In this document: positions 23,350-43,828 of the stretch, in pieces | Numbering within the stretch: position 1 is the stretch's first letter | How the letters are laid out: each line of letters opens with the position of its first letter | Assembly: GCF_004328705.1 (NCBI RefSeq) | Contig: NZ_CP035319.1 | Coordinates: 2,542,001-2,606,000 of the forward strand | Direction: 5' to 3' | DNA: 64,000 nt | DNA from: Rhodococcus sp. ABRD24 | GTDB lineage: Bacteria; Actinomycetota; Actinomycetes; Mycobacteriales; Mycobacteriaceae | Position numbers and translations under genes: made by a program | Notes under the pieces: model-generated | Database searches by the model: none | What the model was told of the DNA's origin: nothing | What the model saw: the letters and a program-made list of their open reading frames with translations, nothing else

Positions 23350-24201
23350 ATGTCACAGTCCGAACCTCTCGCGGGCGTGCGTGTCGTCACGCTCGCCATC
23401 AACCTGCCCGGTCCACTCGCCGTGGCACGGCTGTGCGCTTTGGGCGCCTCGGTGGTGAAGGTCGAGCCGCCGGCCGGAGATCCACTGCGGTTCGCGACAC
23501 CGCAGTGGTACGACGAGCTCGCGAAGGGTCAGCGGATCGTGGCACTCGACCTCAAGGACCCGGCCGACCGGGCACAGTTCGACGCCGAGCTTGCCGACGC
23601 CCACCTGCTGGTCACCTCGATGCGCCCATCGGCGCTGCGCAATCTCGGGCTTGCCGAACTCGCGAAGACACATCCGCACCTGTCGCACGTGGAAATCGTC
23701 GGACACGACGGGCCACAGGCAGAACTGCCCGGCCACGACCTGACGTATCAGGCTGCTCACGGAACACTCGTGCCACCGACCATGCCGACTGTGCCGATCG
23801 TCGACTTCCTCGGAGCCGAGAGAGCCGTCTCTGCTGCGTTGCTCGGACTGATGACGTCCACGAATTCCGCTACGGGAAGCCATCATCGGGTCGTGCTCGA
23901 GGACGCAGCCGAGCACGCGGGTGCCGCAGTCCGGTACGGGTTGATGGGCGCAGACGCTCCACTCAGCGGTGCCAACCCGGCGTACGGCATCTACGCCACG
24001 GCCGACGGTCACGTTGCCCTGGCGGCCATAGAGCCGCATTTCTGGACCCGGACTCGTGCGGCGTTGGGGGTGAACGGTACCCACGAGGAGATCGCGAACG
24101 TCCTGGCCACACGTACGACGAACGAGTGGGAGGAAATCGCCCAACGCATGGACATTCCTCTGGCCGGAATCCGTGAATCTCCTCGAGCAGAGACGAATTG
24201 A
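23350..24201 (+). CDS. Family III CoA transferase / alpha-methylacyl-CoA racemase-like, short form
   Basis: A 283-residue member of the CaiB/BaiF group. ATG 23350 follows GGAGGGA. The Rossmann-like start (GVRVVTLAINLPGPLAVARL, then GASVVKVEPP) is clear. PGHDLTY (His129, Asp130) matches the catalytic His region of alpha-methylacyl-CoA racemase, and Asp152 in PIVDFLGA may match the second catalytic residue. Usual members have 360-400 residues, so about 80-100 residues of the C-terminal swapped domain are missing. It heads an operon with acyl-CoA genes. It is either a racemase of branched acyl-CoA or a CoA transferase. Confidence 0.78.
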   Translation: MSQSEPLAGVRVVTLAINLPGPLAVARLCALGASVVKVEPPAGDPLRFATPQWYDELAKGQRIVALDLKDPADRAQFDAELADAHLLVTSMRPSALRNLGLAELAKTHPHLSHVEIVGHDGPQAELPGHDLTYQAAHGTLVPPTMPTVPIVDFLGAERAVSAALLGLMTSTNSATGSHHRVVLEDAAEHAGAAVRYGLMGADAPLSGANPAYGIYATADGHVALAAIEPHFWTRTRAALGVNGTHEEIANVLATRTTNEWEEIAQRMDIPLAGIRESPRAETN

Positions 24202-24305
24202 CAGAGGCGCAACATCCCCGTCGCGATCCGATCCGCGGGCAGCCATGAGGGCAGGAAAGCGGTCCGCATGAAGCGCACAACCGAGTTCACCGGAAGGTAG
24301 AGACC

Positions 24306-25466
24306 ATGCCCCAACTCTTTCCCGATTACCACTCCCCGTGGGAGACCGAGGACCAGTCGGCGCTACGCAAGCACGCGGCCGAGTTCCTCCGCAAGGAAGC
24401 CACCCCGAACCAGGAGCGCTGGGCGGCCCAGCACGAGGTCGACCGGGACTTCTGGAACCGGGCCGGCGCAGCGGGCCTGCTGTGCCTGGACATACCGGAG
24501 CAGTACGGCGGCGGTGGCGGCAATTTCGGCCACGAGGCGATCGTGCAACAGGAGATCGCTCTCGCCCACGACACCGCTTTCGGGTACGCGGTCCACTCGA
24601 CGATCGTCGCGCACTACATCGCTGCCTACGCCACCGAGGAACAGAAGCGGCGGTGGCTACCGAAGACCACAACCGGCGAGAGTGTTCTGGCGATCGCAAT
24701 GACCGAGCCGGGGACCGGATCCGACCTGCAGTCGGTTCGTACCACCGCGGTCCGTGAGGGCAACGAGTACGTGATCAACGGATCGAAGACGTTCATCTCG
24801 AACGCCTCACACTGCGATCTGCTGGTGATCGTCGCGAAGACGGACACATCCGCAGGCGCACGGGGAATCTCGCTGTTCGTCGCGGAAACCGCACAACTCG
24901 CGGGATTCGAGCGCGGTCGAGTGCTGCACAAGATCGGACAGCACGGGCAGGACACCCGGGAACTGTCGTTCACTGATATGCGGGTCCCGGCGGAGAACCT
25001 GCTGGGCGGTATCGAGGGGCAGGGCTTCTTCCAGCTGATGAACCAGCTGCATCGCGAGCGCCTGATCATCGGCGTCGGCGGCGTAGCCATGGCGGAGGCG
25101 GCCGTACTCGAGGCCATCCAGTACGCCAAGCAGCGACAGGCGTTCGGACGGCCCATTCTCGACTTCCAGAACACGAAATTCGTTCTTGCCGAATGCAAGA
25201 CCGAAGTTTTGGCGGGAAAGACGCTGATGGACTATTGCATTCAGCGGCAGATCGAGGGAACCCTCGACGCGGCCACGGCGTCGATGGCGAAGCTGTGGGG
25301 GACGGAGAAGCAGGTCGAGATCATCGACCGTTGCCTCCAGGTCTTCGGTGGGTACGGCTACATGATGGAGTACCCGATCGCGCAGATGTACGCCGCCGCC
25401 CGAGTACAGAAAATCTACGGTGGCACAAGCGAAATCATGAAGGAACTCATCAGCCGCTCGCTGTAA
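24306..25466 (+). CDS. Acyl-CoA dehydrogenase, LCAD-like
   Basis: A 386-residue flavoprotein that introduces a 2,3 double bond into an acyl-CoA and passes electrons to ETF. ATG 24306 follows GGAAGGTAG. FAD-binding signatures are AMTEPGTGSDLQS (about 131-143), the ISNASHCDLLVIVAKTD strand, and VFGGYGYMMEYPI. The C-terminal YGGTSEIMKELI lacks the usual MCAD-position glutamate. Instead Glu251 in HRERLIIG sits in the helix-G position used by long-chain and isovaleryl-CoA dehydrogenases. A long-chain or branched substrate is therefore likely. It lies in the operon starting at 23350. Confidence 0.92.
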   Translation: MPQLFPDYHSPWETEDQSALRKHAAEFLRKEATPNQERWAAQHEVDRDFWNRAGAAGLLCLDIPEQYGGGGGNFGHEAIVQQEIALAHDTAFGYAVHSTIVAHYIAAYATEEQKRRWLPKTTTGESVLAIAMTEPGTGSDLQSVRTTAVREGNEYVINGSKTFISNASHCDLLVIVAKTDTSAGARGISLFVAETAQLAGFERGRVLHKIGQHGQDTRELSFTDMRVPAENLLGGIEGQGFFQLMNQLHRERLIIGVGGVAMAEAAVLEAIQYAKQRQAFGRPILDFQNTKFVLAECKTEVLAGKTLMDYCIQRQIEGTLDAATASMAKLWGTEKQVEIIDRCLQVFGGYGYMMEYPIAQMYAAARVQKIYGGTSEIMKELISRSL

Positions 25467-25511
25467 TCCGTCCAGCCTGAACCCATCCCGCTCGACCTCG
25501 AAGGACACCAC

Positions 25512-25607
25512 ATGGATACATCGGGTTCTCCCGTCGACGTCTCCGAGAAGACGCGCGTTCCGACAGCGGCGTGTGCAGGCGATCGCACACACGAGAGGTC
25601 CGCATGA
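25512..25607 (+). CDS. Small coupled ORF of 31 codons, unknown
   Basis: ATG 25512 follows AAGGA by 8 nt, and the stop (TGA 25605-25607) overlaps the ATG of the MaoC gene in ATGA form. The peptide starts MDTSGSPVDVSEKTRVPTA and is hydrophilic, with no known domain. It may be a coupling leader peptide, a real small protein, or the remains of a deleted gene head. Confidence 0.4.
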   Translation: MDTSGSPVDVSEKTRVPTAACAGDRTHERSA

Positions 25608-26098
25608 CTTCCTCCGGAACGCGCGCCCACGACCGCACGCACACACTGCACGCCGAGCAGCTTCAGCCGGGCCGAAGCTACGAGCTCGGAACGCATCTCG
25701 TCACCACTGACGAGCTGATCGATTTCGCATCGAAGTGGGATCCTCAGTGGTTCCACGTCGACGCGGAGGCTGCCGACCACGGCCCGTTCGGTGGTCTGAT
25801 CGCGAGTGGCCTGCACACCGTCTCGATCTTCCAGAAGCTCGCGGTTGCGGCAGTGATCGGCGAATGGAACGTGATCGCTGGGCGCGCCCTACGGGACGTG
25901 CGTTTCCTCCGCCCCGTGCGGCCGGGCGACGAGCTGACCGGGGCGATCACGATCGAGAACGTTCAATTCGAAACCGAGAAGGAGCGAGCATTGGTCACCA
26001 CATCTGCACAGGTCCGCAATGTGCACGGCGCGGAGGTCCTCACCGCTGTCATGGATGCATACGTCGGATGCCGGCCGACGGCGGTGACCGGCCGATGA
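25604..26098 (+). CDS. MaoC-like (R)-enoyl-CoA hydratase/dehydratase
   Basis: A 164-residue single hot-dog domain. ATG 25604 is preferred over the in-frame ATG at 25571 because GAGAGG lies before it and it overlaps the small ORF stop. The hydratase motif is visible: ASKWDPQWFHVDAEAA, with Asp and His in the usual D-x4-H spacing, then PFGGLIASGLHT. Members add water to a trans-2-enoyl-CoA. It sits after the acyl-CoA dehydrogenase and overlaps the next gene (ATGA), so it is part of the same beta-oxidation-like pathway. Confidence 0.88.
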   Translation: MTSSGTRAHDRTHTLHAEQLQPGRSYELGTHLVTTDELIDFASKWDPQWFHVDAEAADHGPFGGLIASGLHTVSIFQKLAVAAVIGEWNVIAGRALRDVRFLRPVRPGDELTGAITIENVQFETEKERALVTTSAQVRNVHGAEVLTAVMDAYVGCRPTAVTGR

Positions 26099-26853
26099 GC
26101 GGCATCAGAACGTCCACCGACCTGGCGGGCCGCGTGTTGCGCGTGACGATCGATCGTCCGGATCGGATGAATGCGGTGGATCTTCCGACCCTGTCCGAGC
26201 TCGGCCGCGTGATCCGCACGGCCGGTGAGGACGTCCGCACGATTGTGCTCACCGGGTCTGGGCGGGCATTCTGCAGCGGCGCAGACCTTCTCTCGATGAG
26301 CGGCGCGTCCCCCGATGACGTGATGGACATCGCGAACGGCGTCATCCGCGCGATCGTCGAGTCGCCGGTACCCGTCGTGGCCGCGGTCAACGGTCCTGCG
26401 GTCGGGTTCGGCGTGGCACTGGCCTGCGCGGCCGACCTCACCTATGCGGCCGAGAACGCCTACTTCGCGCTCTCGTTCACCTCCGTCGGACTCATGCCCG
26501 ACGGAGGCTCCACCGCACTCGTCACGGCGGCGATCGGCCGGGCTCGGGTGTCGGAGATGACGTTGCTCGGTGAGCGGCTCTCGGCCGCCGACGCGGAAAG
26601 GACGGGCCTGATCGGCCGCGCCCTTCCCGCCGAGGAACTCTCGACTCACGTCGCTGCCGTGGCCGCCAGGCTCGCGACAGGGGCGCGCAGGGCGCTGGAG
26701 CTGACCAAACGCGACCTCGTCGCGGCGAGCATTCCGGGCATCGACGCGACCCTCGATCGCGAACGATCCGGCCAGATCGAACTCATGGCGACTGCGGATT
26801 TCGCAGAAGGCGCGTCCGCAGTCATGAGCAAACGTCCACCCAATTTTTCCTGA
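26095..26853 (+). CDS. Enoyl-CoA hydratase/isomerase (crotonase) family protein
   Basis: A 252-residue crotonase-fold enzyme. It starts at ATG 26095, overlapping the MaoC stop. Landmarks are GRAFCSGADL (oxyanion hole), AAVNGPAVGFGVALACAADL and GLMPDGGSTALV. The PDGGST segment has Asp where classical hydratases have Glu, which is closer to isomerase-type members such as PaaG. Together with the MaoC gene it gives the operon two hydratase-like steps, or one hydratase and one isomerase. Confidence 0.88.
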   Translation: MSGIRTSTDLAGRVLRVTIDRPDRMNAVDLPTLSELGRVIRTAGEDVRTIVLTGSGRAFCSGADLLSMSGASPDDVMDIANGVIRAIVESPVPVVAAVNGPAVGFGVALACAADLTYAAENAYFALSFTSVGLMPDGGSTALVTAAIGRARVSEMTLLGERLSAADAERTGLIGRALPAEELSTHVAAVAARLATGARRALELTKRDLVAASIPGIDATLDRERSGQIELMATADFAEGASAVMSKRPPNFS

Positions 26854-26883
26854 GCCTGCACAGAACGAGAAAGAAAGAGCGAA

Positions 26884-28413
26884 ATGGCCACTGTTGGAGC
26901 GCAACTCACACTGAACGCGCGGCGTCATCCCGACCGAACTGCACTGATCTTCGAAGGCACAGAACGTAGCTACCGGCAGCTCGACGACGAGGTCAACCGC
27001 CACGCCCACGCCCTCATCGAGCTCGGGGTGCGCAAGGGCGACCGCGTTGCGTTGATGTCGAACAACTCCGATCTTTTCATCGTCGCGATGTATGCGGCGT
27101 ACAAGATCGGCGCGATCTTCGTTCCGGTCAATCCGCGCAGCACCTCCCGCGAACTGCGATACATCCTGGACGATTCCGGCGCCAAGGTGCTTCTGTTCGG
27201 TTCCGCGGTGATCGACGCCGTCACCGGCCTCGACAAGCTCGAGCCGACGGCAGTCCCGCTCACCATCCTGGGCCTCGACAATGCCCAGAACGCGTTCCCG
27301 CACATCGGCGAGCTCGCGGCATCGATGCCGGATACGGAACCCGGTGTCGAGGTGCGCGAGGACGACGACTGCATCATCATCTACACATCCGGCACCACCG
27401 GACAGCCCAAGGGCGCGCTGTTCGATCATCACCGGATCCTCTGGGTGGGGCACTCGGTCACCACGATCGGCATGAATTCGTTCGACCGCAATCTGCATGT
27501 TGCGCCGATGTACCACTGCGCCGAACTGGTCCTCTTCGTGATTGCCGGCTTCTCCATCGGCACCACCCACGTGGTGCTGCCGGCGTTCGAGCCCACGGCC
27601 GTGCTGGACGCCATCACGAAGCATCGGATCACCGTGTTCCTCGGCGTGCCCACCATGTATCAGCTGATGCTGACCGTCCCCGACCTGGCGGAGCGGGATC
27701 TCTCGTCCTGGCGTCTCGGCTTCTTCGGTGCGGCTCCGATGCCGCCGAGTGCGGTGGCAAAGCTCGTCGCAACCCTGCCCGACGTCGCCTTCTACCAGCT
27801 GTGCGGCCAGACCGAGGGCGGCCCCACCGGCATCTACCTGACGCCCGAAGAGGTCGAGGCACGCCCGGACGCAACCGGGCGGTCGGCCATCAGCAACGCC
27901 GAAGTCCGGCTGGTGGACGCCGACGGCAACGACGTCGCCACGGGTGAGACCGGCGAGATGATCGTCCGCGGAGAGACCGTCATGAAGTGCTACTGGAACA
28001 ATCCCGAGGCCACCGCGGACACCATTCGCGACGGCTGGCTGCACAGCGGAGACCTCGCGGTGCGTGATGCGGACGGCTTCATCACAATCGTCGATCGCAT
28101 CAAGGACATGATCATCACCGGTGGACGGAACGTCTACTCCGTTGAGGTCGAAAATGCGATGGCCAGTCACCCGGATGTTCAGGATGTGGCCGTCGTGAGC
28201 CGTATCGACGACACGTTCGGCGAAACCATCGTCGCCGTCGCGACGCCGATGCCGGGCCGCGAGATCTCACTCGACGGGCTGCGCGCCCACGCTGCCGAGT
28301 TCATCGCCGACTACAAGCTGCCCCGAGATCTGGTCATTGGCGAAATCCCACGGAACCAGTCCGGAAAGATCCTCAAGCACGTCCTCCGCGCGAAGGTCCG
28401 CGAATCCGACTGA
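26884..28413 (+). CDS. Fatty-acyl/aryl-CoA ligase (AMP-binding)
   Basis: A 509-residue acyl-CoA synthetase that activates a carboxylic acid with ATP and CoA. ATG 26884 follows GAAAGAAAGAG. The P-loop motif IIYTSGTTGQPKG is at about 160-173, YQLCGQTEGG is the A5 region, and GGRNVYSVEVENAM and NQSGKILKHVL (the C-terminal catalytic lysine) complete the adenylation domain. It is the last gene of the operon starting at 23350, which has its own dehydrogenase and hydratases but no thiolase. Confidence 0.93.
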   Translation: MATVGAQLTLNARRHPDRTALIFEGTERSYRQLDDEVNRHAHALIELGVRKGDRVALMSNNSDLFIVAMYAAYKIGAIFVPVNPRSTSRELRYILDDSGAKVLLFGSAVIDAVTGLDKLEPTAVPLTILGLDNAQNAFPHIGELAASMPDTEPGVEVREDDDCIIIYTSGTTGQPKGALFDHHRILWVGHSVTTIGMNSFDRNLHVAPMYHCAELVLFVIAGFSIGTTHVVLPAFEPTAVLDAITKHRITVFLGVPTMYQLMLTVPDLAERDLSSWRLGFFGAAPMPPSAVAKLVATLPDVAFYQLCGQTEGGPTGIYLTPEEVEARPDATGRSAISNAEVRLVDADGNDVATGETGEMIVRGETVMKCYWNNPEATADTIRDGWLHSGDLAVRDADGFITIVDRIKDMIITGGRNVYSVEVENAMASHPDVQDVAVVSRIDDTFGETIVAVATPMPGREISLDGLRAHAAEFIADYKLPRDLVIGEIPRNQSGKILKHVLRAKVRESD

Positions 28414-33013: not shown

Positions 33014-33808
33014 TCATTCGCCTACGACGGTGACGGAACCGAGGTTGGTGAACTCCGCGACGATCGGATGACCCGGTTCGACGAAGACGGCATCCGTCAT
33101 GCCTCCGGTGAGGATGATCCACCCCGCCTCCAGAGCGAGCCCACGCTCAGCGAGAGAGTTTGCGGCGAGAGCCAGCGCCTCGGCGGGATGTCCCTGTACG
33201 GCTGCGCCGGTGGCGCGGTCGACCTCAGCGCCGTCGATCTTGAGAACACACTCCTCGATCACCAGGTCGAGTTCGCTCGGGTCCCGCTCGACATCGCCCA
33301 AGAAGAATCGCGACGAGGACGCGTTGTCGGCGACGACGTCGGGGAGGGTGAACTTGAAGTCGATGTACCGGCTGTCGATGACCTCGATCCCGGCGCGCAC
33401 GGACCGGACGGCAGCCAACGCCGTCTCCGCCGTTACACCGGGACCCTCGAGACGTTCGCCGAGCACGAATACGATCTCGGGCTCGACCCGCGGATGGATC
33501 AACTCGGCCATCGGGATCGGGCTTCCCTCCTCGAGAACCATCCGGTCGGTGAGAACGGCGGTCAGCGGCGAGTTGACGCCCATCCGCTGCTGCTTCGCCA
33601 CCGAGGTCAATCCGAGCTTGACGCCTATCACCTTTTCGCCCTGCGCCACCTTGCGGGCAATCAGTTCGTCCTGAACGAGGTAGGCGGTGGTCAGATCGAG
33701 TCCGGGCCAGTCCTCCGTGACGGGGTGGCGATCGCAGCGAGTTTCCTCGGCGTTCAGCAGCACCTCGGCGGCGGATTCGATAGTCCAGGTCGTGGGGGCA
33801 ACACTCAT
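33014..33808 (-). CDS. amnE: 4-oxalocrotonate decarboxylase
   Basis: A 264-residue enzyme of the hydratase/decarboxylase family that converts 4-oxalocrotonate to 2-oxopent-4-enoate and CO2, using Mg. The segments KLGLTSVAKQQRMGV, LIHPRVEPEIVFV (Glu ligands), EVIDSRYIDFKFTLPD and ADNASSSRF follow the decarboxylase (DmpH type) pattern more closely than the hydratase (DmpE) pattern, and the length is the same as DmpH. It is separated from the other aminophenol genes by the IclR, RpiR and ligase genes. Its start overlaps the stop of a truncated ORF (ATGA). Confidence 0.87.
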   Translation of the reverse strand: MSVAPTTWTIESAAEVLLNAEETRCDRHPVTEDWPGLDLTTAYLVQDELIARKVAQGEKVIGVKLGLTSVAKQQRMGVNSPLTAVLTDRMVLEEGSPIPMAELIHPRVEPEIVFVLGERLEGPGVTAETALAAVRSVRAGIEVIDSRYIDFKFTLPDVVADNASSSRFFLGDVERDPSELDLVIEECVLKIDGAEVDRATGAAVQGHPAEALALAANSLAERGLALEAGWIILTGGMTDAVFVEPGHPIVAEFTNLGSVTVVGE

Positions 33809-33951
33809 GGGATGGCTACTTCCTTACTGGTGGGTCGCGGTGCCACGAGGCCGATCGCGACATCGATCATCAGGTCTTCCCGCTCACCGGACGAGGCAAT
33901 CGGCTCGCGTGAATCATATGCGGCAAGAAGAGCTTTCGCTGTGAGTTCAGT
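33805..33951 (-). pseudogene. Fragment like the N terminus of a 2-oxopent-4-enoate hydratase
   Basis: About 48 codons upstream of the decarboxylase read ELTAKALLAAYDSREPIA, then EREDLMIDVAIGLV, and end at a TGA that overlaps the decarboxylase ATG. The first part fits the usual N terminus of hydratase-family proteins (ALL-AAY-x-RxPI, then DL-xI-xxA). The rest of the gene is missing and there is no clear start codon. It looks like a deletion relic of the next enzyme of the pathway, still coupled to amnE. Confidence 0.5.
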
Positions 33952-34058
33952 ATCGGGGCGCGCCGCGTTCCGTGGGCCCCGTCGAACGGTTGAATCGGCC
34001 GGCGTCGTTATCCGACTGCAGTTTGTACTATGCAGCGGCGCAGCGCGATAATCAATGA

Positions 34059-34838
34059 ATGAGTCCCGAAGAACGGAACAGTTCGGCTTCGCGTGACCAA
34101 CCGACATCGGTCGTTCGGCGGATGTCGGAACTTCTCACGGCATTCGGCCCATCGGACACGTATCTCGGAATCAACGAGCTCGCCCGTCGCACCGGAATAC
34201 CCAAGGCAACCGTGTCGAGACTGATCAAGGACATGGAGCGAGAGCGATTCGTCGAGCGGCGCGGCAGCCAGATCGGACTCGGGCTCAAGCTGTTCGAGCT
34301 CGGCGAACGCGCATCACGGCGCCGTTCGGTCCGCGAGATCGCGCTACCGTTCCTCGCTGATCTCCGCGAGGCCACCGGGCAGACTGTGCATTTGGCGATC
34401 CTCGACGGCACCGAGGTGGTGTACGTCGAGATCCTCCGGGGCCGGGACGCACCGTGGCTACCTTCGGGCGTCGGGGGCCGGCTGCCTGCCCACGCAACCG
34501 GAGTGGGCAAGGTGCTGCTGGCGCATTCACCACCCGAGGTGCTCGACGCCGTCCTGGCCGCGGGACTCACCCCGGTGGGCCCACGCACGGTGACGCTCCC
34601 CGCACCGTTTGTCCGACAGCTCCGCCGTATCGCCGAGACCGGCATCGCGTACGAACACGAGGAATCGGCGCCGGGCGTCGCATGTGTCGCCAGTTCCGTA
34701 CGTGTCGGCGATGATCCGCCGATTGCCGCGGTCTCCGCGTCCGGATGGATCGGCAAGGTCGACATCCGCCGTGTCGCACCCGCGGTTCACACCACCGCAC
34801 TCACGATCGCCCGCGCACTGGCCGCCATCGACGCCTGA
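34059..34838 (+). CDS. IclR-family transcriptional regulator
   Basis: A 259-residue IclR protein with a winged helix at about 15-80 (GINELARRTGIPKATVSRLIKDME) and an effector-binding domain (HLAILDGTEVVYVE, then LPAHATGVGKVLLAH). Such regulators often control aromatic catabolism. It is divergent from the decarboxylase and hydratase fragment, so it probably controls amnE and perhaps the rest of the cluster. The inducer is unknown. Confidence 0.92.
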   Translation: MSPEERNSSASRDQPTSVVRRMSELLTAFGPSDTYLGINELARRTGIPKATVSRLIKDMERERFVERRGSQIGLGLKLFELGERASRRRSVREIALPFLADLREATGQTVHLAILDGTEVVYVEILRGRDAPWLPSGVGGRLPAHATGVGKVLLAHSPPEVLDAVLAAGLTPVGPRTVTLPAPFVRQLRRIAETGIAYEHEESAPGVACVASSVRVGDDPPIAAVSASGWIGKVDIRRVAPAVHTTALTIARALAAIDA

Positions 34839-34897
34839 AGTCCCGCCGTCGAGGCACGTGTCGGTGGCGTCAGCCTGAACCAACCGGCGCGCCGGTT

Positions 34898-35794
34898 TCA
34901 CGTTGCCGAAGTCTTGCGCGGTTGCCGCGCCGATTCCTCCGCAACCTGCAGTTCCTCGAAGGCAGCCAGGCGTTTGCGCGCCGGCTCACCCAGGCGTTGT
35001 GTACACAGGGCGATCAGAATCTCGACGAGCATGAACCCGTGGGTCATCGAGTCGAACGGACCGAGCCCGACGTGACTTGTGGTCAGAACCGAATCCGCAT
35101 AGCTGGCCAGGGGCGACAGGTACGCGTCGGTGACCGTGATCAGGTGCGCTCCTCGCTCGACGGCCGCGACGCCCCAGTCGACGACGGTCTGCTGATATCG
35201 CCGATAGTCGAATACGACGACGACGGTATCCGCGTCAATGTCGATGAGCGCACTCAACTTCGCGGCCGAGGTGGGGGGCACGTAGTCGACCCCGTCGCGC
35301 AACATGTGCAGGTACTGGGCAAGGTGCGCGGCGAGCGCCGTGCTGTATCGCCCCCCGATCGTCACGACGTTGCGGTTGCGATCGGTCAGCGCGGACACCA
35401 CCCCGTCGAGTTCACGCTCGTCGATCGACTGCAGCGTGGTCCTCACTCCTTCGGTGTAGATACGTTCCGAAGTCGCGAGCGGCGAGTCTTCCCCCGACTC
35501 GGTACCGGTCGGCGGGTAGATACTGACCGGCGAGAACAACCGGGTCTGTACTTCCTGCCGCAGCGCCGCTTGAAACGCGCCATACCCATCGAAGCCCAGC
35601 TTGCCGATCAGCCGGAGCACAGTCGGCCCACTGACTCCTGCCGCAGTCGCCAACTCGGCAATCGATCCCAGACCCGCCGTCGGATAGTTGTCGACAAGTG
35701 CTGCGACTACCTTGTGCTCAGCCGGCGCCAGGGATCGGCGAACTTTGCGAATCCTCTCGGCAACAGTGGGATCCGTCGACGGTGCGTCTGCCAT
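34898..35794 (-). CDS. RpiR-type regulator (HTH plus SIS domain)
   Basis: A 298-residue protein with an N-terminal RpiR helix-turn-helix (GSIAELATAAGVSGPTVLRLIGKLGF, about 43-68) and a C-terminal SIS domain (NVVTIGGRYSTALAAHLAQYL near 137, then VVVVFDYRRYQQTVVDW) that usually binds a sugar phosphate or related ligand. ATG 35794 is the best start. It is divergent from the glutamine-synthetase-like gene across 287 bp, so it may regulate that gene. Confidence 0.88.
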   Translation of the reverse strand: MADAPSTDPTVAERIRKVRRSLAPAEHKVVAALVDNYPTAGLGSIAELATAAGVSGPTVLRLIGKLGFDGYGAFQAALRQEVQTRLFSPVSIYPPTGTESGEDSPLATSERIYTEGVRTTLQSIDERELDGVVSALTDRNRNVVTIGGRYSTALAAHLAQYLHMLRDGVDYVPPTSAAKLSALIDIDADTVVVVFDYRRYQQTVVDWGVAAVERGAHLITVTDAYLSPLASYADSVLTTSHVGLGPFDSMTHGFMLVEILIALCTQRLGEPARKRLAAFEELQVAEESARQPRKTSAT

Positions 35795-35813
35795 GGACGC
35801 CCATCTTACCGTC

Positions 35814-35837
35814 AGGTAGCACCTTTCCTTGCTACCT
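35814..35837. promoter_or_regulatory. Inverted repeat AGGTAGC-N10-GCTACCT near the RpiR start
   Basis: A perfect 7-bp dyad (35814-35820 with 35831-35837) with a 10-nt spacer, 19 bp before the RpiR start codon. The spacing of one helical turn fits a dimeric regulator, possibly RpiR itself. Confidence 0.45.
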
Positions 35838-36081
35838 CGTACGCACCCGATTCCGCGCCGATCCGTCCCGTCCGCCGGGCTCGACACCGGCGACGGAACA
35901 CAGTTGGCCCGGCAGGTGCAATCCACCACCGAATTACTCTGGGCTACTGCAACAATGGCAGCCCAACCGTCCTTGTGGCTACCGAACCGGCGAGATAGAG
36001 TCCCTGACAATTACCGGCACGAACGGACCTCAGCGACACTGATATCACCCGACGGCCCGGCGTGCAGGAGGAGTTACCGAA

Positions 36082-37575
36082 GTGGAGATGCCGAGTCGGG
36101 GTTTCATCGAGAATCATGGCCTGTGGAACGAGAACCAGCGCGACGAAGCCAGGAACATCCTCGCCCGAGTTCAGGCGGACGGCATCCGGACGGTACGGGT
36201 CAGCACTGCCGATCCGCAGGGCAAGCTGCGTACCAAGGCGGTGACACCCGCGGTCTTTCCATCCGTCCTCACCGACGGCCTCGACTTCAGTTCTGCCCAG
36301 TTCAACTTCGATTCCGGCGAACGATTCGTTCGCGACCCCTTCGAACCCGCGAGCACGGCATCTCCACATGAGACGACCGGGCTACCCGGTGTGATTCTCG
36401 TGCCCGATCCACGCACCTTCCGGGAACTGCCCTGGTCACCCGGAACCGCGTGGATCCTCGGCGACATGTACTCGGCCGACGGCAGGCCCGTCCCCTTCGA
36501 CGCTCGACACAAACTCGAGGAGCTCCTCGCACGAATGCGGGGAGAGGGCCTCGAATACGTGGCAGGCCTCGAAATCGAGTTCTACGTGACACGCGTCCTC
36601 GATCAAAAGCTTGCTCCCGAGGAACTCGGCGGCCAGGGCCGGCCACCGACACCGCCGATCGTCGAAGCCGTCACACGCGGATACGCCTACCAGAGCGAGG
36701 AAGACCACGACAGGCTGGACGGCTTCCTGGCCGCGGTCGTGGACTACGGCCAGCGCCTGAAAATGCCCATCCGTACGGTCGAGATCGAGCTCGGACCCGG
36801 ACAGATCGAGGTCACATTCGAGACGATGGACGGCTTGGCGGCAGCCGATACCGCGGTTCTCTTTCGCTCCATGGTCAAACAGGTCAGTGCACGGATGGGA
36901 CTGCATGCGACCTTCATGGCCGCGCCCGGGCTACCCGGGTTCTGCGCGAGTGGTTGGCACCTGCACCAGAGCATCAGCGATCACACGGGACGTAACCTCT
37001 TCGCCGCCCCACCGGGATCGAATCAGCACCTCGCACCGATGGGCTTGCATTTCCTCGGCGGAATACTCGAGCACGCGCGAGCAGCCTCCGTATTCACCAC
37101 ACCCACGGTCAACGGCTATCGCCGCCGACGCGCCTACTCGCTAGCGCCCGACCGGGCCACCTGGGGTCACGACAACCGGGCCGCAATGTGCCGGGTGATC
37201 GGATCCCCAGGAGATTCCAGCTCGCGCATAGAAAATCGCGTCGGGGAACCGGCGGCGAACCCGTATCTCTACATCGGTAGCCAGATCGCGGCCGGTCTGG
37301 ACGGTATCCGGAACCGCACCGATCCGGGCCCCCGCGAGAACGCACCCTACAGCGCAACGTCTCGACCCCGGCTTCCGACGACACTCATGGAAGCGGTCGA
37401 CGAACTACGGGACAGCAAGTTCTTCCGGCGGGAATTCGGCGACGACTACATCGAGTGGCTTCTCACCGTCAAGGATTCCGAGATCGAACGCTTCCTCGAG
37501 GCCGAACCCCAGTGGGAGCAGCACCCCGACGAAGTGACCGATTGGGAACACCGCGAGTACTTCACACGATACTGA
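36082..37575 (+). CDS. Glutamine synthetase-like gamma-glutamyl ligase
   Basis: A 497-residue GS-family enzyme that would join the gamma-carboxyl of glutamate to an amine with ATP. GTG 36082 follows AGGAGG by 10 nt. GS landmarks are LEIEFYVTRVL (metal-binding Glu), EIELGPGQIEVTF, ASGWHLHQSI and SSRIENRVGEPAANPYLYI. The N-terminal and Asp loops differ from housekeeping GlnA, as in the ligases that act on polyamines, ethanolamine or aniline. Its place beside aminophenol genes suggests an arylamine substrate, as with gamma-glutamylanilide synthase. This is an inference. Confidence 0.8.
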   Translation: MEMPSRGFIENHGLWNENQRDEARNILARVQADGIRTVRVSTADPQGKLRTKAVTPAVFPSVLTDGLDFSSAQFNFDSGERFVRDPFEPASTASPHETTGLPGVILVPDPRTFRELPWSPGTAWILGDMYSADGRPVPFDARHKLEELLARMRGEGLEYVAGLEIEFYVTRVLDQKLAPEELGGQGRPPTPPIVEAVTRGYAYQSEEDHDRLDGFLAAVVDYGQRLKMPIRTVEIELGPGQIEVTFETMDGLAAADTAVLFRSMVKQVSARMGLHATFMAAPGLPGFCASGWHLHQSISDHTGRNLFAAPPGSNQHLAPMGLHFLGGILEHARAASVFTTPTVNGYRRRRAYSLAPDRATWGHDNRAAMCRVIGSPGDSSSRIENRVGEPAANPYLYIGSQIAAGLDGIRNRTDPGPRENAPYSATSRPRLPTTLMEAVDELRDSKFFRREFGDDYIEWLLTVKDSEIERFLEAEPQWEQHPDEVTDWEHREYFTRY

Positions 37576-37655
37576 TGACTGCGAACCTGTCGCGAAACTC
37601 TCTGACAAGCAGTCGATTTCATGCCGATCAGGACGAGGACCATCGCGGGTGAGGA

Positions 37656-37687
37656 GCATGGCCGGCCTGCCGGAGACCCTGCCATGC
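37656..37687. terminator. Weak hairpin between convergent ligase and amnA genes
   Basis: GCATGGC (37656-37662) pairs with GCCATGC (37681-37687), with a small inner CGGC/GCCG stem. It lies between two convergent stops and may end both transcripts. There is no T tract. Confidence 0.35.
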
Positions 37688-37704
37688 CCTCGCCACGATC
37701 GCGA

Positions 37705-39928
<2,224 letters not shown>

Positions 39929-39980
39929 TTCGTCATCCTTCGAATTGCGATGTTCTGATCGGCGTGCACGGATCGGCCGT

Positions 39981-41450
39981 TCACAGCTGGACGCAGACGT
40001 TGGTCGGTTCGGTGTAGAAGTGGAGCGAGGCCTCGCCGCCCTCGCGACCGACACCGGAAAGGCCGGCACCACCGAACGGGGAGCGGAGTTCACGGGTGAA
40101 CCACGTATTGACCCAAGAGATACCGACATTCATTCGTCCGGCCACCCGGTGGCCTCGACGGAGGTCATTGGTCCACACCGCTGCCGCGAGCCCGTACTCG
40201 GTGTCGTTCGCCAGCGCGATCGCCTCTTCTTCGGTGTCGAACGGGATCAGTGCTGCTACGGGGCCGAAGATCTCTTCACGGACCGCGCGGTCGGTGTTGG
40301 TGAGCCCGGTCCACAGCGTGGGCTCGATCCACGAACCACCGCGGAGGTCGGCGCCGACGTCGGGCACACCGCCACCGGTGAGGACCTTGGCGCCCGCTTC
40401 CTCGGCGAGCGCAAAATAGTCGAGAACCTTGCGCCGATGGGCGTGGGAGATCAAGGGCCCGGTTGTCGTTGCCGGATCCTGCGGGTTGCCGAGCTTCAGT
40501 TGCTCGGCACTCGCCACCAGACCGGAAGCGATGTCGTCAAAGATTGCGCGCTGGATGTACACGCGTTCGGTGCAGAGGCACACCTGCCCGGTGTTGGCGA
40601 ACACCGATCGGGTCAGACCCGCGATGGCCTCGTCGAGGTCGACATCGTCGAACACCACGGCCGCGTTCTTTCCGCCGAGTTCGAAGGACACCGGACGCAC
40701 CCGCGGAGCGACGGCCTGCATGACGCGCGATCCGGTAGCCGAGGACCCGGTGAAGGTGACGCCGTCGATTCCGGGGTGAGCGGTCAGGAACTCGCCGGCC
40801 GAGTTCCCGCCGAACCCGTGCACAACATTGTACGCACCTGCCGGCAACCCCACTTCGTCCAGAATCTCCGCGAGAAGCGTAGCAGTGGAGGGTGTTTCCT
40901 CACTCGGCTTCACCACGACGGCATTTCCGCACGCGAGTGCAGGAGCAACCTTCCAGGTCAACAGGAGCAACGGGAGGTTCCACGGGACAATCACCGCGAC
41001 CACACCGAGCGGCTTGCGGATGGCGTAGTTCAGTGCCTGACGACCGCCCGGCAGGTCGGTCATGAACGATTCCTGACCGGCTGCGGCAACGATGTCGGCG
41101 AATGCACGGAAGTTCGCCACAGCGCGAGCCACATCGAGTTCCCGGGCCTGGGTGATGGGTTTTCCCGTGTCGGCGACTTCCGCCGCCACGAACTCCTCGA
41201 ACCGTTCTTCGATCCGATCGGCGGCCCTCCTCAACAGTGCCGCCCGCTCACGCACCGGGCTGTCTGCCCACCCGCCGTCCAATGCCCGGCGGGCGGCCTG
41301 TACCGCACGATCGACGAGAGCCTCGTCCGCCTCGTGTACCGAGGCGTGTGCCCGACCCGTGGCGGGATCGATACATTCGAAGCTGGACCCAGATTCCGGG
41401 TCGACGAATGCGCCGTCGACGAAGTTTCGAATCCATTTATCGGAGTTCAT
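39981..41450 (-). CDS. amnC: 2-aminomuconic 6-semialdehyde dehydrogenase
   Basis: A 489-residue NAD-dependent aldehyde dehydrogenase. Catalytic residues are Cys291 ([12 protein letters not shown]), Glu257 (FELGGKN) and Asn158 (VPWNLPLL). The cofactor motif is [12 protein letters not shown]. It resembles the 2-hydroxymuconic/2-aminomuconic semialdehyde group, which fits its place between the hydrolase and amnD genes. It oxidises the unstable ring-cleavage product before it can close to picolinate. The start is ATG 41450, without a strong ribosome site. Confidence 0.9.
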
Positions 41451-41517
41451 ATTTCAATTGCCGTTCTTCGATGGGAGTTACTCCGAGAGCATGCGGAGCT
41501 GCTTGTGACAGCGACTG

Positions 41518-42417
41518 CTAGTTCGACTGCTCTACGACACTCTCGACGCCCGCAAAGCGAGCGACGATCTCGGCGAGCACACCGTTCGGGTTCGCAAGCT
41601 GGTCGAGGATGTCGAAGTGATTGGCCTCGATCTCCAGCACCTCGAAGGACTGCCCGGATCTCGCGGCGAGCGTCGCAGCAAAATCTACTGTCTGCCTCTG
41701 GAATTCACTGGGCTCCTGACTGCCGTAGGCAAATGCGACGGCGGGCAGCCGAACTGGCGGATCGAGCTCCGGCGACAACCTCGCTGCCGTGTCCGGATCG
41801 AGTTGTAGCAGCGGGCCCAGGAAGCTGTGCGGTAGGGGTCGCAGATCATAGACGCCGCTCACGCCGATGGCACCGGCATACGGGATTGCGGGCAGACCGT
41901 AGTCGGCGGCCCAGTCGGTCTGGAGCAGTGCTGCAACGCCATGGCCGCCGGCAGAGTGACCAGCCAGGACGATTCGGTCACCGTCGGCCCCATAGTCGTC
42001 GAGGTGGTTCCAGAAGTGGGCGAAGCCCTCCCGATGCTGCTGAACGATGTCATCGATGGTCACTCGCGGGCACAGGGCATAGTTCTCCACCACGACGACG
42101 AACCCGCGGCTGCACAATCCCTCTGCGATGTAGCTCCAGACCTTGCTGGTGGTCGCCTTCCAGTAGCCGCCGTGCACGAAGTACAGCGTCGGTCGGGGGC
42201 CCTCGAAAGAGGACGGGGGCAGGAACACGTCATAGTTCGCGTCGATGTCACTTCCGTACCGGATATCGAGCAGCACTCGCCCTTCGCTTCGTACCCTCTC
42301 GCTTCTTTGAACGAAATCCCCTGCATACAAAGAGAAGTCCGGAACTGTCGCCTCTATGTCGTATTCGGCATCCAGCTCTGCCTGGGTTCGGAACTGTCGA
42401 TACAGAGGTGTCGTCAT
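41518..42417 (-). CDS. Alpha/beta hydrolase, arylformamidase-like
   Basis: A 299-residue cytoplasmic hydrolase. ATG 42417 follows AAGGAG. It has the HGGYW oxyanion motif (82-86), typical of kynurenine formamidase and related amidases, the nucleophile elbow GHSAGGH with Ser155, and a late histidine in EANHFDILDQL. It is the first gene of the aminophenol operon, so it may free an aminophenol from an N-formyl, N-acyl or carbamate precursor. The natural substrate is unknown. An esterase is also possible. Confidence 0.8.
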   Translation of the reverse strand: MTTPLYRQFRTQAELDAEYDIEATVPDFSLYAGDFVQRSERVRSEGRVLLDIRYGSDIDANYDVFLPPSSFEGPRPTLYFVHGGYWKATTSKVWSYIAEGLCSRGFVVVVENYALCPRVTIDDIVQQHREGFAHFWNHLDDYGADGDRIVLAGHSAGGHGVAALLQTDWAADYGLPAIPYAGAIGVSGVYDLRPLPHSFLGPLLQLDPDTAARLSPELDPPVRLPAVAFAYGSQEPSEFQRQTVDFAATLAARSGQSFEVLEIEANHFDILDQLANPNGVLAEIVARFAGVESVVEQSN

Positions 42418-42964
42418 GAGTTGGCTCCTTCGAGTGGGGCTGTGTACGTGGGACCAAGGCGTGGAGATCTGGGCGCGCCTCAGCGCAAGGAGCGGCGAGT
42501 GGCTCGTGCCGAAACTCGAACATCCGTCGGCAGGCACCCGAGCTTCTTCGGACCATGTGCCTGACGAAAGTCGCTTGCGCCAGAACGGCACTCACGACGC
42601 GCAGGAGATCGAAGTCTTTGTGGCACTGTCCATTCCACCCGAATAGTGCATACCCGGATGACGCGAAGGCAGTGTGCGCGGTTCGACGTTGGCCGAGAGC
42701 CGGGCAGCCCCCGGCGACTTCGCCGCCCGGCTCCGCAAAGCGGGGCCGACATACAAGCTGGGTGCTCCAGCGACCCCACTTCTCACCTCCCGTCGGACCG
42801 TGAACGTAACGTACGTTACATGATCTGACACAGAACGGAATAGATATTACGAAAGAATTCTGCCGCCGCCCGAGGTGCGCACCGATCAGTACGGGCTTGC
42901 GCGATCGCCGAACCAGTACCGAACCAGGACACATGTGCGACGGACCCGAACGCAGTTCCTTGCC
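42418..42964. other. 547-bp intergenic region upstream of the aminophenol operon
   Basis: No gene is seen. The region holds the operon promoter on the minus strand and a perfect 14-bp palindrome listed separately. A short open frame (42480-42779, minus) has no recognisable sequence. The AT-rich stretch at 42820-42865 contrasts with its surroundings. Confidence 0.5.
42806..42819. promoter_or_regulatory. Perfect palindrome GTAACGTACGTTAC
   Basis: The 14-bp sequence is fully self-complementary. It resembles TetR-type operators, but no tetR gene is adjacent. It lies 390 bp upstream of the aminophenol operon start and about 140 bp from the end of the next gene. Confidence 0.45.
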
Positions 42965-43531
42965 CTACGGCTGGACACCCCGGCGCACCGTCTCGAGACG
43001 CCCGTCGCCGTCGGTGTCGCTCAGCCGTACGGTCATTCGCCCCTGCTCTTCCTCCGCGACCAGCACCGTGTCGTGCCGGAGTCGATCCCGGATGGACAGG
43101 AGCACGACGTCGTGCGTGCCGTTTCCGTCCAGATCGGCGGACGCGTCGTCCACCGCGCCGTCACCGTCGTAGTCGAGGCTCATCCATCGAACCGATCCGG
43201 GCTTCGGCTGGTCCGGGTGAGCGAACCGCTCACCGATCTGCGGTTGCGTCCGCTCAGCGGGGCTGTCACGGGCGACCTCACGGCCCCACACACCATCGCG
43301 GGCCGGGTCCGCGAAGTATCGGACGGCCGGATCGCCCAAGTCCAGTACCGCGCGGTCCGCCGCACCGTCACCATCGCAGTCCCACATCGCGTCGTCCGTG
43401 AGTCCGTCCCCATCGAAGTCCAGTCGCACCGCGTCGAACCCGCCGACTCCGTCCACGTCGACATCGGCAGCCGAGGACCACACCGTCGGCGGACAGTCGC
43501 CGGTGCCGAACCAGTACTCGAGAGATCCCAT
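42965..43531 (-). CDS. Aspartate-rich DxDGDG-repeat protein, probable calcium binder
   Basis: A 188-residue acidic protein. ATG 43531 (MGSLEYWFGTG) is placed by AGGTAGG. It holds at least five DxDGDGxxD-type loops (for example DFDGDGLTDDAMWDCDGDG, DYDGDGAVDDAS, DTDGDGRLET), like the calcium loops of EF-hand, dockerin or FG-GAP-like repeats. No signal peptide is evident, so export is unclear. It stands alone. The function is unknown. Confidence 0.65.
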   Translation of the reverse strand: MGSLEYWFGTGDCPPTVWSSAADVDVDGVGGFDAVRLDFDGDGLTDDAMWDCDGDGAADRAVLDLGDPAVRYFADPARDGVWGREVARDSPAERTQPQIGERFAHPDQPKPGSVRWMSLDYDGDGAVDDASADLDGNGTHDVVLLSIRDRLRHDTVLVAEEEQGRMTVRLSDTDGDGRLETVRRGVQP

Positions 43532-43718
43532 ACCTACCTGGACGTAACCGGTACCGACACGGTTCCGCCGCAACCGAACGGAGTTGGGGGCCGGGCGCTG
43601 ACTGATTCCCCGCGGGCAAGTAGCGCTCGAAGTACGGCAGCGTCACGTACTTCTGCGGCAACGGTCAGAATCGGAGCGGGGCAGGCCGAAGATTCGATGG
43701 GCTCGACTCCAGCGCGAA

Positions 43719-43775: not shown

Positions 43776-43828
43776 CGGCCGAATGCCACATACGTCCGGT
43801 TCGAGTAGACGTATGTGGCATTCGGCCG
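43776..43828 (-). repeat. 21-bp perfect inverted repeat, hairpin element
   Basis: Arms at 43776-43796 and 43808-43828 pair without mismatch around an 11-nt loop. It lies 35 nt beyond the phosphodiesterase stop (43863), so it can end that transcript. A perfect 21-bp stem is longer than needed for termination, so a dispersed palindromic repeat is possible. Confidence 0.8.

Follow-up and report, generated by a model that had tools for sequence, protein, structure and literature searches.

A proposed 2-aminophenol meta-cleavage pathway split over two loci of Rhodococcus sp. ABRD24, with no microcompartment genes beside it and an amide as its likely substrate

Here, we analysed a 64,000-nucleotide stretch of Rhodococcus sp. 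ABRD24 (NZ_CP035319.1, positions 2,542,001 to 2,606,000; hereafter, the window), and in particular its 2-aminophenol ring-cleavage (amn) genes and their neighbours at 33014..42417. We propose, at roughly even odds (about 0.5), that these genes belong to a two-locus 2-aminophenol meta-cleavage pathway that would be fed by an amide and that has no adjacent microcompartment genes. The locus is an actinobacterial amn cluster without adjacent shell genes and, as such, a counterexample to a published inference, the available text of the source reporting no actinobacterial hits outside ARO microcompartment loci (PMC10470539). In addition, the first gene of the cluster encodes an alpha/beta hydrolase, termed here Hyd, that provides a concrete candidate for the entry enzyme and recurs in 19 of 80 amnB loci. 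The substrate, the role of a nearby glutamine synthetase (GS)-like ligase and the regulation are matters that we infer.

Five genes on the minus strand, in the order Hyd, AmnC, AmnD, AmnB and AmnA, are separated by gaps of 67, 52 and 56 bases followed by a 4-base overlap, and owing to this tight spacing they look like a single operon led by Hyd. AmnC (39981..41450), a 2-aminomuconate (2-hydroxymuconate) semialdehyde dehydrogenase, scored 773.7 bits with TIGR03216, above the curated cut-off of 693.25, and AmnD (39497..39928; 143 aa), a 2-aminomuconate deaminase of the Rid family, matched the deaminase 6izh with 184 bits. The beta and alpha subunits of the 2-aminophenol 1,6-dioxygenase, AmnB (38520..39440) and AmnA (37705..38523), matched those of 2-amino-5-chlorophenol 1,6-dioxygenase with 515 bits (3vsg_B) and 276 bits (alpha subunit of 3vsg), respectively. 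Residues H14, H63 and E252 of AmnB, which we take to be the iron ligands, are invariant in an 18-sequence alignment that includes the window's AmnB. The best model for AmnE (33014..33808, minus strand) is the 4-oxalocrotonate (2-oxo-3-hexenedioate) decarboxylase TIGR03218, with 256.5 bits and hence below the cut-off of 350.55; a Pseudomonas homologue from an amn cluster scored 239.6 bits with the same model. The amn enzymes, like the satellite genes described below, are thus identified by sequence, with AmnBA as a two-subunit dioxygenase with conserved metal-site residues.

All of these enzymes had been named in a preliminary description of the locus and were found as named, while the arrangement given there required correction on two points. 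The decarboxylase gene, previously placed in the operon module, lies outside it: the genes for the GS-like ligase, an RpiR-family regulator and an IclR-family regulator stand between amnA and amnE, and AmnE and the divergent IclR gene (34059..34838, plus strand) are 3.9 kb from the operon. The gene for the GS-like ligase (36088..37575, plus strand; 495 aa), previously described as divergent from the amn operon, is in fact positioned tail to tail with it, with 129 bases between them, and is divergent from the RpiR gene (34898..35794, minus strand; likely start at 35794). The GC content over the operon is only slightly lower, a search for island-border repeats at the locus led nowhere, and promoter and terminator scans gave no excess over shuffled sequence.

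The late steps of the pathway were located elsewhere in the genome. A search of the genome with an AmnG revealed two strong places, one of which is a satellite locus ~267 kb away that carries amnF-H-G and a divergent IclR gene, whose product is 43.7% identical to the window's IclR. The satellite AmnH and AmnG scored over their curated cut-offs, and the best score of AmnF was that of a hydratase. The other place holds a second AmnG-type match (49%), the neighbours of which resemble a steroid-degradation set. Since the satellite amnF-H-G adds the late steps to the amn genes of the window, the predicted pathway is complete on paper, split over two loci and running through AmnF, AmnH and AmnG to pyruvate and acetyl-CoA. 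Late-step satellite loci adjoining an IclR gene have likewise been described for ARO microcompartment loci (PMC10470539). When the amnE/IclR, satellite and upstream-of-Hyd regions were compared for a shared operator, no 18-mer pair with at least 15 matches was found. In the mechanism that we propose, Hyd would act as an aryl-acylamidase-type serine hydrolase and free 2-aminophenol, or a ring-substituted form, from a small N-acyl derivative, candidates being N-formyl-, N-acetyl- or N-malonyl-2-aminophenol. AmnBA would then open the ring, AmnC oxidise the semialdehyde, AmnD deaminate the product and AmnE decarboxylate it to 2-oxopent-4-enoate, which the satellite AmnF-H-G would convert to pyruvate and acetyl-CoA.

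An ARO microcompartment was considered for this locus and rejected on the basis of its gene neighbourhood and of AmnB itself. No shell-protein genes were found beside the dioxygenase genes, and the two PF00936 (shell-domain) matches of the genome lie ~170 kb away, where they adjoin an aminotransferase and an acetylating aldehyde dehydrogenase. Furthermore, the 30-35-residue N-terminal extension of the ARO beta subunit is absent, residue 5 of AmnB aligning with residue 33 of 7txy_B, and AmnB is nearer to the proteobacterial enzyme than to the ARO enzyme (515 vs 392 bits). The distant microcompartment locus (C1:2744001-2764000), in which these two enzymes are encoded together with the shell proteins, contains no amn genes and presumably resembles the RMM type.

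Hyd (41518..42417, minus strand; 299 aa) is the first gene of the operon, as the preliminary description had it, and carries the motifs HGGYW at 82-86 and GHSAGGH at 153-159. Its putative catalytic triad is S155/E235/H267, with HGGYW, the nucleophile elbow, Ser, acid and His all in register. The predicted model of Hyd ranks kynurenine formamidase above most other esterases; identity to the Drosophila enzyme (4e11) is 22-24% in the structure alignment. Linkage to amn genes was counted in 80 amnB loci of other bacteria, the best 80 of 100 confirmed contig-scan matches, from which records near our own genome were perhaps left out; 42 of them have a full 10 kb on both sides and 38 end early at contig ends. 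The counts were made by tblastn because the caller of open reading frames missed some Hyd genes. A Hyd relative (at least 190 bits) was found in 19 loci, each time on the amnB strand. Given this recurrence of Hyd at amn loci and the high rank of kynurenine formamidase among the matches to its model, we favour a reading in which 2-aminophenol is released by hydrolysis; an amide is the likely substrate, and aryl-acylamidase is our best guess for the role of Hyd. The lack of a monooxygenase or nitroreductase, which had earlier been cited in favour of such release, holds for the 30 open reading frames of ~15.3-48.0 kb to which the Pfam scan was limited. A literature search over titles and abstract openings found no hydrolase-led amn operon.

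Within the lineage of Rhodococcus sp. ABRD24 the locus is rare. AmnB was found only in our own genome, at 1/14 in the genus, 1/401 in the family sample and 1/394 in the class sample, these overlapping sets each counting that genome. AmnB in the 80 loci is 70-79% identical to that of the window, none of these best 80 of 100 contig-scan loci has an actinobacterial record title, and a protein search revealed two Streptomyces with AmnB at 81-82%. The locus was probably acquired. In 15 of the 80 loci (e.g. L051:6142-7851), a flotillin gene on the strand opposite amnB lies upstream of it, accompanied by a branched-chain-type ABC transporter. In public records, several AmnB/AmnA homologues bear the name 'tRNA U-34 5-methylaminomethyl-2-thiouridine biosynthesis protein', apparently an annotation error that has spread from record to record.

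In sequence comparisons, the GS-like ligase showed 56-66% identity to proteins of the Gordonia type and from Shinella and Rhizobium, 49% to the GS encoded on Comamonas plasmid pI2 (taken here to be a chloroaniline plasmid) and 45% to NpaA1. A housekeeping glutamine synthetase was rejected (209 bits vs a TIGR00653 cut-off of 429.15). The protein keeps the amine-site Glu pair E232/E234 of NpaA1 and the aromatic tunnel residues F74 and F85, and agrees with the pI2 protein at F80, Y201 and L235. Judged by the pocket-residue roles described for the arylamine GS ligases (GoaS), NpaA1 among them (PMC11335346), the sequence places its pocket in the arylamine type. It deviates at 6 of the 117 columns that are invariant in 11 relatives, compared with 11/122 for NpaA1 and 7/118 for the Dietzia protein, and since these deviations are few, and fewer than in NpaA1, the ligase bears no sign of decay. 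In five of the five clade mates examined (L083, L084, L112, L113 and L121), the alpha and beta genes of a Rieske dioxygenase (RHD) adjoin the GS gene, and four of the five have a divergent RpiR gene; the GS of L121 was read in pieces. RpiR proteins encoded next to GS/RHD genes in related genomes share 57-60% identity with that of the window. Queries with the Shinella RHD, reductase and PuuD-like proteins found no match in the window, and the whole genome holds one PF00848 match, 35% identical to the Shinella RHD alpha subunit. An aniline dioxygenase at the locus was rejected, there being no Rieske dioxygenase alpha/beta genes beside GS. No GS relatives at E 1e-60 or better were detected in 13 sister species. 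We picture the intact RpiR/GS pair as one half of an aniline-dioxygenase-like module of the Gordonia type that was captured here, and its ligase would probably glutamylate arylamines, either as a sideline or for protection. Because this arylamine glutamyl ligase stands without its dioxygenase, the locus allows a test of whether enzymes of this kind have a use beyond the aniline dioxygenase route. The genome also carries a second GS-like ligase (C1:2921001-2941000), 47% identical to that of the window, whose module also encodes two amidases, a glutamine-amidotransferase-like protein and an AmiS/UreI-like protein (the last two names being our labels); a near-same module, 84-93% identical, is present in genomes of two other genera.

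A possible regulatory link between RpiR and the operon was noted upstream of Hyd. Across six promoter regions beside RpiR genes whose products are 57-60% identical to that of the window, CGTTAC is the most repeated 6-mer, with at least two copies in 5/6, and these RpiR proteins share almost the same helix-turn-helix sequence. Eight 6-mers occur in at least five of the six regions; seven of the eight are also found upstream of Hyd, and the 120 bases at 42801-42920 are the window's richest stretch in shared 6-mers. There, CGTTAC forms the perfect 14-base palindrome GTAACGTACGTTAC (42806..42819), a candidate RpiR site, as it does not upstream of GS. RpiR may control the hyd-amn operon, a lead only, and several observations weigh against it. 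The RpiR/GS intergenic region contains none of the eight shared 6-mers, the half-sites upstream of Hyd are arranged otherwise than in the related loci, and the motif test was post hoc, run after the palindrome had been noticed. Moreover, the number of GTAACG pairs expected from a first-order random model is 0.135 per 64 kb, 24 of 200 runs contained one or more, and the unrelated stretch of our own genome that holds the second AmnG-type match also has such a pair.

The assignment of Hyd has its own counter-evidence. Its family is broad and its putative amidase activity is a prediction: the Pfam matches, BD-FAE and Abhydrolase_3, are both general families, and the closest solved structures are labelled lipase (9n8r) and putative esterase/thioesterase. 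The amn-linked copies do not form one clade, the tree requiring 13 changes of which at least eight are forced (its 31 amn-labelled rows include nine weak-kin rows, with two of those genes entered twice), and Amq, presumably the pAL1 aryl-acylamidase-type relative of the Hyd family in Arthrobacter Rue61a, falls on a different branch from the window's Hyd. Hyd was not detected in 61 of the 80 loci, 38 of the 80 ending early at contig ends; in three (L012, L018 and L034), the Hyd-associated transporter and flotillin genes are present and the contig stops before the place of Hyd. The structural labels and general Pfam families would suit an esterase or downstream hydrolase with no part in making 2-aminophenol, a reading that we regard as unlikely in view of the recurrent same-strand linkage to amnB and of the known downstream steps, already filled by AmnE-H. 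We consider it rather more doubtful that 2-aminophenol arises by the opening of 2-benzoxazolinone or its carbamate, carried out by Hyd either on its own or following an unlinked lactonase. This route draws on a 305-aa metallo-beta-lactamase-fold protein, a possible benzoxazolinone opener, in four of the 80 amn loci (L005, L072, L077 and L078), which is beside Hyd in L072 and L078, and on BxdA, a ~34 kDa lactonase described as converting MBOA (6-methoxy-2-benzoxazolinone; PMC11297187). However, a search of our own genome with the 305-aa protein, run with no positive control, gave no match, and at E 1e-20 no NCBIfam model recognised the protein.

The place of GS in the pathway is less secure than that of Hyd, both genes having been set outside the classical route by the preliminary description, which had also named beforehand, as a refuting case, homologous clusters in which the two genes are never linked. 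This case does not hold for Hyd, which with 19 linked loci is no oddity; in the loci examined it does hold for GS, which occurs in 0/80 amn loci, 42 of them with full flanks, and a glutamylation step in this pathway is hypothetical, because the relatives of GS are neighbours of a Rieske dioxygenase with no counterpart in the window. Only slightly short of an even chance, in our estimate, is that RpiR/GS is the remnant of an aniline-dioxygenase-like module beside which the amn genes arrived, with no part in the pathway. The RHD genes adjoining GS in all clade mates examined, their absence from the window and the single PF00848 match of the genome argue for such a remnant, and the undecayed GS and the CGTTAC hint argue against it; as it concerns GS alone, it fits the amide-fed pathway proposed for Hyd and the amn genes. 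Alternatively, GS could make the gamma-glutamyl amide of 2-aminophenol, from which Hyd or another hydrolase would release it to AmnBA, in one system under RpiR. The intact, arylamine-type GS and the RpiR-promoter word upstream of Hyd are in line with this idea, as are GS-like and Hyd-like genes that meet, with RHD genes, within 7 kb on a Stutzerimonas plasmid and within 9 kb on a Shinella plasmid, with no amn genes in the stretches read. The Rieske dioxygenase of both plasmid loci, absent from the window, and the lack of GS at amn loci make it improbable, and to our knowledge no Hyd kin cleave glutamyl amides, which also counts against it. Its most elaborate form, caging in place of a shell, we hold to be very improbable: GS would store 2-aminophenol, which is toxic and self-oxidising, as gamma-glutamyl-2-aminophenol, Hyd would release it to AmnBA, and RpiR would sense the caged form and control hyd-amn.

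Elsewhere in the window, an open reading frame at 42965-43573, which repeats D-x-D-G-D-G-like motifs and matched nothing in Pfam, lies between Hyd and ABC transporter genes, and an inverted repeat with perfectly matching 21-base arms and a loop of 11 bases (43776-43828) is located near the 3' end of a glycerophosphodiester phosphodiesterase open reading frame. On the plus strand, 23350-28413 encodes a probable CoA-transferase (judged from its N-terminus), an acyl-CoA dehydrogenase, an enoyl-CoA hydratase and an AMP-binding ligase, unrelated to amn.

Compared with the described parts of known systems, the locus combines familiar elements in a different arrangement. It shares AmnBA, AmnC, AmnD and AmnE, with F, G and H in the genome, with the proteobacterial amn clusters of Burkholderia xenovorans LB400, ordered amnRJBACDFEHG (PMC3790839), and of Comamonas CNB-1 (cnb), but has IclR and RpiR, two loci, Hyd leading the operon and GS nearby; no match to a MarR-type AmnR or to AmnJ was found in the window. 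Like the ARO locus of Actinobacteria (PMC10470539), it joins actinobacterial 2-aminophenol cleavage genes to an IclR gene and has a satellite late-step locus with a second IclR, whereas it lacks adjacent shell genes and its AmnB is unextended and closer to the proteobacterial enzyme. Hyd resembles the HGGYW arylformamidase and aryl-acylamidase hydrolases (4e11; Amq) in HGGYW, GHSAGGH and fold, and its acid is Glu as in the pAL1 protein, to which it is 34% identical on a separate branch; the main text of the Rue61a genome paper, as far as available, does not contain 'amq'. Finally, GS shares its fold, arylamine-type pocket residues and 45-49% identity with the arylamine GS ligases NpaA1, AtdA1 and TdnQ/DcaQ (GoaS, PMC11335346), and differs from them in standing without an adjacent glutamine-amidotransferase-like gene, Rieske dioxygenase or reductase.

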